Both the position numbers and the translations under genes were made by a program. From the NCBI GenBank assembly GCA_943323545.2, contig CALPIE020000003.1:1-52431 (forward strand): a stretch of 52,431 bases of DNA. Reading direction: 5' to 3'. Of this stretch, positions 1 through 52,130 are shown piece by piece. Each line of letters starts with the position of its first letter. The stretch's first letter is position 1. Source of the DNA: Bifidobacterium breve. Lineage in GTDB: Bacteria > Bacteroidota > Bacteroidia > Flavobacteriales > Flavobacteriaceae. Below the pieces are notes generated by a model. The model did not search any database. It saw only the letters and a list, made by a program, of their open reading frames with translations, and was not told the origin of the DNA.

Positions 1-79
1 AAAAAAAGAAACGGAGAAAATCGTTTTAAAGAAACTATAATATTAGCCAAAATCATCCCAACTCGAAATTACATTAATA

Positions 80-107
80 TTTGTCAAAGTTCAAAACTTT
101 GACAAAG
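80..107. repeat. REP-like palindrome upstream of RAYT
   Basis: TTGTCAAAGT-TCAAA-ACTTTGACAA, perfect 10-bp arms (81-90 / 96-105). Confidence 0.85.
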
Positions 108-150
108 GTTTAAAGGGTAAAATAGAAAAGTGTTTAAATTAAAAATAACA

Positions 151-774
151 ATGAACATAAGAAATGAAATTTTAGAACCAGATGCTTTTTATCACATTTA
201 TAACAGAGGTATAAACAGTGAAAAAATATTTGATACTGAAGAAAATTATTTGTTCTTTTTGTTGAAATTTAAAATATATTTAAATCCTGTTTGCGATGTA
301 TTTGCTTATTGTTTAATGCCAAATCATTTTCATTTTTTAATAAAAGTGAAGTCTGAAATTGAGATAAACACTTTTGCCAAAGTTTTGAACTTTGACAAAA
401 AGGATATAACTAAACAAGAAAAAGGACTTCACTCTTTTGATTCAATAGTGAGCAAACAAATGGGAAAATTTGTAAGTAGTTACAGTCAGGCTTATAACAA
501 AGTTACCAATAGACACGGCGCATTATTAGAATCTCCATTTAAAAGAAAACGGGTGGAAAATGAAGAGTATTTACGAAATTTAATTATTTACATTCATTTG
601 AATCCGATAGATATTAAGAAAAATTTTGAGAGTTATATTTTCTCATCATATAAAGCAATCCTGTCTAAAGTTAAAACGAATCTGAAACGTGAAGAAACGA
701 TTACCGTTTTTGGGGATATAGATAATTTTATTTATTTGCATAATTACCCACCTAAATTTGATTTTAAATTTTAA
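151..774 (+). mobile_element. REP-associated tyrosine transposase (RAYT, IS200-like Y1/HUH family)
   Basis: ORF has the HUH motif in 'LMPNHFHFLIKV' and the typical 'PFKRKRVENEEYLRNLIIYIHLNPI' C-terminal motif. ORF track starts at GTG 130; ATG at 151 is the more likely start. Flanked by matching palindromes. Confidence 0.9.
372..400. repeat. REP-like palindrome inside the RAYT coding sequence
   Basis: TTTTGCCAAAGTT TTG AACTTTGACAAAA, one mismatch between arms; same motif as the flanking palindromes. Confidence 0.75.
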
Positions 775-780
775 TTACAA

Positions 781-811
781 CCTTTGTCAAAGTTTTAAAC
801 TTTGACAAAGG
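781..811. repeat. REP-like palindrome downstream of RAYT
   Basis: CCTTTGTCAAAGTTT-T-AAACTTTGACAAAGG, perfect 15-bp arms. Confidence 0.9.
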
Positions 812-3819: not shown

Positions 3820-3902
3820 TTCCGTTTTCCTGCTTTTCGTTTCAATATCTTTGTCAAAGTTTAAAACTTCGACAAAGATGATTTCCACTACAATCAGGGC
3901 TA
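3820..3902. repeat. Composite dispersed element, copy B (conserved ends with RAYT-type palindrome core)
   Basis: Left end 'tcctgcttttcgtttcaatatct', core TTGTCAAAGTTTAAAACTTCGACAA (3851-3875), right end 'gatttccactacaatcagggcta'; ends match the elements at 43101-43196 and 52014-52110. Confidence 0.7.
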
Positions 3903-3940
3903 AATAGTAATCGTCTTGCACAAAATCAAATTGCTCTCTA

Positions 3941-25892: not shown

Positions 25893-26046
25893 TTCTTAAA
25901 TTATACTATTTTTGTGGGGTTTTAAAATAACAATGGTTATACGAACAAATTTACTAAATGTTTCAATCGGAATCTATTTTTATTTTTTAGAAGCGAAACT
26001 TTTGGCATCTTTGCAATCCATGTTCCTGCTTTCCGCTTTATTTTTA

Positions 26047-26077
26047 TACCTAACAGGTTTTTAAAACCTGATAGGTA
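26047..26077. repeat. REP-like palindrome TACCTAACAGGTTTT/AAAACCTGATAGGTA
   Basis: 15-bp arms with one mismatch and a 1-nt loop, preceded by 'ttcctgctttccgcttt' as in the composite element at 3820. Confidence 0.8.
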
Positions 26078-26177
26078 CAAAAGATACCGCGTTAAATGCA
26101 AAGTATTCACCGAACACTTATTAAAAATAAGAGTTAAGTGAGATAATCAGGGATAAACAGTAAGCCATTTAAACAAA

Positions 26178-35432: not shown

Positions 35433-35445
35433 GATATAGAGTATT

Positions 35446-35481
35446 CCCCTCCTCTGGAGGGGTGCCCGAAGGACGGGGTGG
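35446..35481. repeat. CCCCTCC palindromic repeat between paaB and paaC
   Basis: cccctcctctggaggggtgcccgaaggacggggtgg; near-identical to 2287-2322 in aroA. Confidence 0.9.
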
Positions 35482-43085: not shown

Positions 43086-43100
43086 TAATTAGAAGCTAAT

Positions 43101-43196
43101 CCCGCTATCCGCTGCAATCTGTCATTGCGAGGAACGAAGCAATCTCATCATGATTGTTTACCGCAATGCCAGGATTTCCACTACTATCGGGGCTAG
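43101..43196. repeat. Composite dispersed element, copy A (GTCATTGCGAGGAACGAAGCAATCTC-type core)
   Basis: Left end cccgctatccgctgcaatct, core 43121-43170, right end aggatttccactactatcggggcta. Confidence 0.75.
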
Positions 43197-43219
43197 AAAT
43201 AAAGTGAAACAACACACCC

Positions 43220-43259
43220 TGCGAACTTTGCGACAACCTTGCGGACTTTGCGGTTAAAT
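43220..43259. repeat. TTTGCG-type tandem repeat upstream of paaF-like gene
   Basis: gcgaactt tgcgacaacct tgcggactt tgcggttaaata. Confidence 0.7.
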
Positions 43260-43266
43260 AAAAAAT

Positions 43267-51948: not shown

Positions 51949-52013
51949 TTTTAGTTGCTGAGTTTTGTCGTGGCTAAGTTACTGAGATTTTTTTATTTTA
52001 TTGTAGATTGCGT

Positions 52014-52110
52014 TAGGGATAGCAGTGGAAATCCTTTTTTTGAAGGATTTCTCGAAGCGGAGCGAAGAGAAATCAAACCTTCAATAAAAGATTGCAACGA
52101 ATAGCCCGCT
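52014..52110. repeat. Composite dispersed element, copy C (reverse orientation)
   Basis: tagggatagcagtggaaatcctt - hairpin core - aaaagattgcaacgaatagcccgct; reverse complement ends match copies A and B. Confidence 0.75.
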
Positions 52111-52130
52111 CGAACGCCCTTATTTATAAA

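Follow-up and report, generated by a model that had tools for sequence, protein, structure and literature searches.

The closest described counterpart of the repeat analyzed here is the Flavo-1 motif (RF01705), which a 2010 paper lists as a candidate RNA with no regulatory role assigned (Weinberg et al., PMC2864571), and to which Rfam gives the type 'Gene; sRNA'. A second body of work concerns REPs and the REP-associated tyrosine transposases (RAYTs, TnpA_REP), wherein in-frame REP insertions within the gene have been reported for TnpA_REP subclass 2.4 (PMC6006769), and REP dimers nested in longer palindromes are described from A. variabilis (GTAG-15) and H. neapolitanus (CGTC-1) (PMC3733652). 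The nesting of REPs therefore has a precedent. Modular shells, swapped interiors and captured repeats are absent from the Flavo-1 papers that we found, and the open-licence literature yielded no description of modular interiors or of exchange for this element, so novelty is not proven.

The stretch of DNA that we analyzed (the window; 52,431 nucleotides) carries three loci that an earlier note, made from the letters alone, had described as a modular repeat with conserved ends and exchangeable hairpin cores, and for which its author knew of no named element. The element does have a name. An Rfam scan of the window gave three matches over threshold, all to RF01705 and all above its gathering cut-off of 42 bits (Table 1), and these are exactly the reported copies, which lie where the note had placed them. 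Flavo-1 is a known, named Flavobacterium element that is listed as an RNA. A family search recovered 74 matches in the 2.53-Mb genome to which the window belongs, 57 of them over the cut-off, and no match in any of the 14 control genomes. The same element is matched in 58 of 61 congeneric genomes, many of which reach the scoring cap, and its spread through the order is patchy (40 of 148 genomes).

The end patterns that had been proposed as shared by the three loci fared unevenly. The right end recurs at exactly these three places with zero or one mismatch, and no shuffle produced as many matches, but the left end alone, when three mismatches are allowed, falls within the range of chance (18 of 100 shuffles). 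Significance lies in the pair of ends plus the structure, not in the left end alone. Genome-wide, the ends do co-occur, and homology by descent does not extend to all of the cores; these were the two points on which the earlier note had staked its reading.

Table 1. Positions of the Flavo-1 copies, their cores and the RAYT locus in the window
Feature	Position	Strand	Context and basis
RAYT-flanking palindrome, upstream	77..107		Repeat family D4
RAYT gene (REP-associated tyrosine transposase, TnpA_REP)	130..774	+	PF01797 over cut-off; own-genome match C3:190-414
Same palindrome, in frame within RAYT gene	370..400		D4
RAYT-flanking palindrome, downstream	780..810		D4
Flavo-1 copy 1	3822..3905	-	Between queA and kynureninase; RF01705 67.4 bits, E 1.1e-12; outer shell TAGCCCTGAT...AGCAGGA; own model R1 score also 67.4 bits
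Core of copy 1	3847..3877		Palindrome CTTTGTCAAAGTTTAAAACTTCGACAAAG, as in RAYT-flanking repeats; repeat family D4
Probable 5'-truncated Flavo-1 remnant	26010..26079	-	Upstream of alaS; ACCTAACAGG...CCTGATAGGT palindrome; read by eye
Flavo-1 copy 2	43094..43198	-	Between paaZ-like and enoyl-CoA hydratase-like genes; RF01705 62.3 bits, E 2.8e-11
Core of copy 2	43120..43171		TGTCATTGCGAGGAACGAAGCAATC...CCGCAATGCCA; resembles inverted pair of CGTC-type REPs; read from sequence
Flavo-1 copy 3	52001..52115	+	Upstream of hutU; RF01705 52.5 bits, E 1.4e-8
Core hairpin of copy 3	52039..52084		TTGAAGG...CCTTCAA; read from sequence

Copies from the window's own genome exhibit nested layers: outermost is a shell, next comes a middle stem whose internal loops are conserved, and at the apex lies a hairpin of free sequence. 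The elements are 47-140 nt long and have the ends TAGCCC...GGA. The usual outer shell has the form TAGCCC-N-GAT...AGC-N-GGA (TAGCCCNGAT...AGCNGGA), and an alternative shell reads GCGTTAGGGAT...AGCCCG...AACGC. The claim that the three window copies share the same ends holds for the middle stem, which is common to all of them, but the outer shell of copy 3 is of the second type (GCGTTAGGGAT...AGCCCGC...AACGC), wherein GCGTTAGGGAT ... AGCCCGCTCGAACGC stand in place of TAGCCCNGAT ... AGCNGGA, and the match of our own model R1 to this copy is limited to model positions 6-55. The three cores differ in the way that had been described, and no named relative was found for the core hairpin of copy 3. 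The region before alaS, which the note had considered similar but with another palindrome, appears by eye to be a 5'-truncated copy; Flavo-1 copies on contigs C148, C62 and C38 have cores that match its palindrome, but the region falls below threshold with both RF01705 and R1.

Several other arrangements were observed. A second middle module (ATTGTTTGAGCTC...core...AAGCGAGTT) resides within the same outer ends at loci L103, L105, L106, L111, L113, L123 and L191, and has a weak or zero score with the covariance model. Long cores of about 90 nt (L201, L203, L211, L189, own-genome copies) have a common apical GCGACCAACGGAAGC hairpin, and L107, L114 and L127 carry this hairpin too, inside a shell of the second type. 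Near copy 2, window positions 43216-43266, which precede the enoyl-CoA hydratase-like gene, hold a CTTTGCG-rich stretch that is also found in many congeneric genomes. Elsewhere in the window, positions 2283-2322 and 35442-35481 are two 93% identical copies of a repeat of the form CCCCTCC...GGAGGGGTGCCCG...GGGCGGGGTGG, the first of them inside a predicted ORF, and a repeat resembling it adjoins Flavo-1 in L126.

Orthologous sites bear out the idea of a container whose cores are exchanged or nested, because they hold different interiors between conserved flanks. For 29 orthologous pairs from three genomes, which were obtained with the covariance model (an earlier, stricter pattern search of the same genomes gave only 16), identity exceeds that of randomly paired loci by 0.19 and 0.15 in the two outer flanks but by 0.02 in the core, and the core is retained in only one pair. 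In a wider set of 31 pairs whose flanks are 70% identical or more on both sides, and which are not independent because many involve the copy-2 site, the interior is less than 50% identical in 8, 50-70% in 10, and more than 70% in 13. The clearest case is the comparison of L200 in genome G013 with L191 in G067, wherein the left flank is common through TAACCCTGAT and the right flank is common for some 40 nt beginning at GCAGGA, whereas the interiors are 27 nt and an unrelated 58 nt, respectively. A comparable replacement between flanks distinguishes L210 from L179.

The site between queA and kynureninase is equally varied. Genomes G000, G027, G137 and G147 have the TAGCCC kind of shell there with four different cores, and G137 (L126) and G027 (L115) match in both flanks and arms while G137 carries a CGTC-like core and G027 an AAACCTGACAGG core. 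The G137 form is also found at this site in the MAG Jr-19feb18-71 (L219). Further species have the second shell, a different middle stem, or no element at this position, and the second shell as it stands here in F. glaciei, F. sinopsychrotolerans, F. xueshanense and F. weaverense varies in its side hairpin (CCCCAAGGG versus CCCGCTGAAAAGCGGG). At the copy-2 site, one interior is kept in the related genomes G013, G067, G140 and G123, and therefore replacement is frequent rather than constant or universal. In many cases the middle stem and the apex give way to unrelated hairpins, but the site and the outer ends remain.

The compared pairs differ by roughly 10-20% in their flanking genes, and for this reason intermediate steps are unseen; no exchange within one species was observed among them. 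Approximately half of the compared sites are unoccupied. A MITE would have terminal inverted repeats, a target-site duplication and an autonomous partner. The ends of Flavo-1 pair imperfectly, no partner was found, and, among the cases listed, no precise empty site with conserved flanks offers a clean junction, such that neither an insertion boundary nor a target duplication is definable.

Base pairing in the lower stem is preserved with great fidelity. In 46 copies with the core trimmed, the seven lower pairs are formed in 99.1% of cells, compared to only 25-63% for controls in which the partners were slid. Changes on both sides affect 81 cells versus 28.5 expected, four of the pairs have such both-side changes, and columns 7/53 represent all four Watson-Crick pairs. 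Among 219 distinct elements, the four variable pairs comprise 790 Watson-Crick, 19 G-T, 3 A-C and 50 other combinations. Because G-T exceeds A-C by 19:3, these data suggest that the Rfam strand is the strand that folds. The wobble share of the variable pairs is 19 of 809 (2.3%), versus 40 of 434 (9.2%) in tRNAs of the same contigs, which is low for RNA helices, although this tRNA control is small (20 genes only).

The orientation of the elements is also skewed. In three genomes, elements that lie between codirectional genes have their Rfam strand antisense to these neighbours in 33 of 43, 23 of 27 and 17 of 20 cases (33:10, 23:4 and 17:3; 73 to 17 in total). All three copies in the window are likewise antisense to their neighbours, which are queA and kynureninase for copy 1, the paaZ-like and enoyl-CoA hydratase-like genes for copy 2, and hutU for copy 3. 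Replication-strand bias was rejected as the cause of this orientation, as there is no significant strand switch along two single-contig genomes. A function as an intrinsic terminator was also rejected, since the queA site has a separate terminator hairpin before the element that is conserved where Flavo-1 is absent.

These characteristics must be weighed against the possibility that Flavo-1 is a genuine structured RNA (an sRNA or UTR element). In that case, a protein would recognise the lower stem, nothing would constrain the apex, and divergence or replacement of a core would have no effect. The strict covariation of the lower stem, the conserved internal loops and the excess of G-T over A-C mismatches on the Rfam strand would all be in keeping with such a role, and part of the matches coincide with transcribed 5' regions (PMC9723704). 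However, published RNA-seq reveals no consistent strand and places many matches outside transcripts, and what is conserved at the queA site is a separate intrinsic terminator and not Flavo-1. Judged on sequence only, the wobble and orientation counts argue against a noncoding RNA, while the G-T/A-C ratio argues for one. Furthermore, a structured RNA alone gives no account of the wholesale replacement of interiors between identical flanks. Taken together, the few wobble pairs and the antisense placement mean that a folded DNA repeat fits better than a co-transcribed RNA, and we consider a structured RNA to be unlikely.

Some of the apices are standalone repeats of the genome, and the RAYT-flanking palindrome is among them. 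Specifically, copy 1 has as its core the palindrome CTTTGTCAAAGTT...AACTTTGACAAAG, standalone copies of which lie around and inside the RAYT gene of the window (matches at 92.9-96.4%) and bracket that gene in the arrangement of a REPtron. The same arrangement exists on contig C39 of genome G093, where this palindrome flanks a RAYT that is 64% identical to that of the window. The RAYT gene in the window also matches NF047646 with an E value of 1.9e-9, which is under that model's own cut-off. The palindrome is found in 60 of 150 genomes, and its reversed control in none; by inspection, no GT[AG]G foot is present in the RAYT-flanking palindrome or the copy 1 core. When compared by eye with the text of PMC3733652, where CGTC-type REPs have a CGTC or TGTC start, an 8-9 bp stem, a 4-5 nt loop and a CCA tail, the core of copy 2 exhibits several of these features. 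The TGTC start is present, and the window copy has CTC where L126 has the CCA tail. Core-only matches to copy 2 occur in other genomes, for example over 33 of 33 nt in G146.

In a sampled part of each of three genomes, near-copies that lie outside every Flavo-1 element exist for 15 of 110 cores, versus approximately 0.2 expected from palindrome-preserving shuffles. The description of the cores as REP hairpins, although correct for some, fits only part of them, because most cores in this sample have no detectable standalone copy. The cores are genome-specific: a core has its nearest neighbour within its own genome in 73 cases versus 44.7 expected, a value reached by none of 2000 label shuffles, in a test that leans on the sharing of short A/T-rich hairpins. 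Motif counts, which gave an assignment to only 69 of 170 elements, agree with this result (for example, TTGCCT...AGGCAA is present in six G067 elements and in none from the other two genomes). Single-linkage clustering of the cores was discarded, as families were not separated and one group formed via A/T runs.

Perhaps resident RAYTs mobilise REPs into the apex of the Flavo-1 hairpin, where they are later lost or replaced. The identity of the copy 1 core with the palindrome at the window RAYT gene, the corresponding G093 locus, and the REPs nested in larger palindromes in other phyla (PMC3733652) would be expected from such a process. However, most cores have no standalone REP counterpart in the sample, and copy 1 has its usual CCTTTT...AAAAG arms replaced rather than interrupted. 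Moreover, several Flavo-1-rich genomes (including G004, G029 and G052) have no Y1_Tnp match, and because these genomes carry many copies, a RAYT is not needed for the Flavo-1 family. We therefore rejected the mobilisation of Flavo-1 itself by RAYTs, and we regard the insertion of REPs by transposition as an improbable general source of the interiors. Neither does Flavo-1 as a whole conform to the definition of REPs, as it is not a 20-40 nt palindrome with a GTAG/GTGG or CGTC foot and, in the same three genomes, does not co-occur with a RAYT. A RAYT may supply some of the REPs.

Integron attC sites are composed of conserved folded ends around a variable terminal structure. A dedicated recombination system that works in a similar manner, though not on attC sites, might read the folded ends of Flavo-1 and swap hairpin cassettes between precise boundaries, while the chromosomal sites and the order of modules stay fixed. 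The replacement boundaries are indeed precise (at CCCTGAT and GCAGGA), the folded ends are conserved around a variable terminal structure, and module order and orientation are kept. However, the copies are dispersed rather than arrayed, and ectopic gene conversion requires no special enzyme; we judge such a system, for which Y1_Tnp was the only recombinase candidate looked for, to be quite doubtful. An assignment to attC sites proper was rejected because the R''/R' boxes (RYYYAAC/GTTRRRY) are absent from the 46-copy Flavo-1 consensus. The interiors might also differ simply because an unconstrained loop diverges fast, and chance might produce similar hairpins. This is very unlikely, for although the cores are short and A/T-rich and several orthologous interiors differ only moderately, lengths jump (for example from 27 to 58 nt) between nearly identical flanks, and near-copies of cores elsewhere in the genome are far more numerous than in shuffles.

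We conclude that Flavo-1 is probably a modular palindromic DNA repeat, the interior of which is overwritten from other hairpins of the genome, with REPs as one source. It would be a high-copy, nested repeat of Flavobacteriales in which a shell surrounds the middle stem and apical hairpin. For the mechanism of the exchange seen at orthologous sites, we infer that the element-carrying strand folds as single-stranded DNA and that the sequence of a different hairpin in the same genome is copied over its interior. Such copying might proceed by ectopic gene conversion or by template switching, with the shared ends serving as homology, and a REP might sometimes be captured directly. That the paired ends persist suggests recognition of the folded base by a host factor, with the apex left free to change. 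If Flavo-1 is indeed a DNA repeat that is rewritten in place, then its sRNA annotation is misleading, the strong covariation behind the Rfam entry has another cause, and the family offers a natural system for the study of hairpin exchange between sites on bacterial chromosomes.

Compared with the published Flavo-1 entry (RF01705; PMC2864571), the elements described here have the same lower stem and the same internal loops and likewise belong to Bacteroidetes, but what is listed there as a candidate RNA exhibits modular shells, swapped interiors and captured repeats. The palindrome of the copy 1 core flanks a RAYT gene and has one copy in frame inside that gene, the latter a trait reported for REP/RAYT systems of subclass 2.4 (PMC6006769). 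In contrast, Flavo-1 is longer than REPs, is without a GT[AG]G foot, and is present in genomes without any Y1 transposase gene. The resemblance to integron attC sites is restricted to how the two might work, as Flavo-1 forms no cassette arrays. The nearest published precedent that we found is the nesting in A. variabilis and H. neapolitanus, where REP dimers lie inside a longer palindromic carrier. Each of those carriers holds one REP family, whereas the Flavo-1 carrier accommodates many types of hairpin, which replace one another at orthologous sites.
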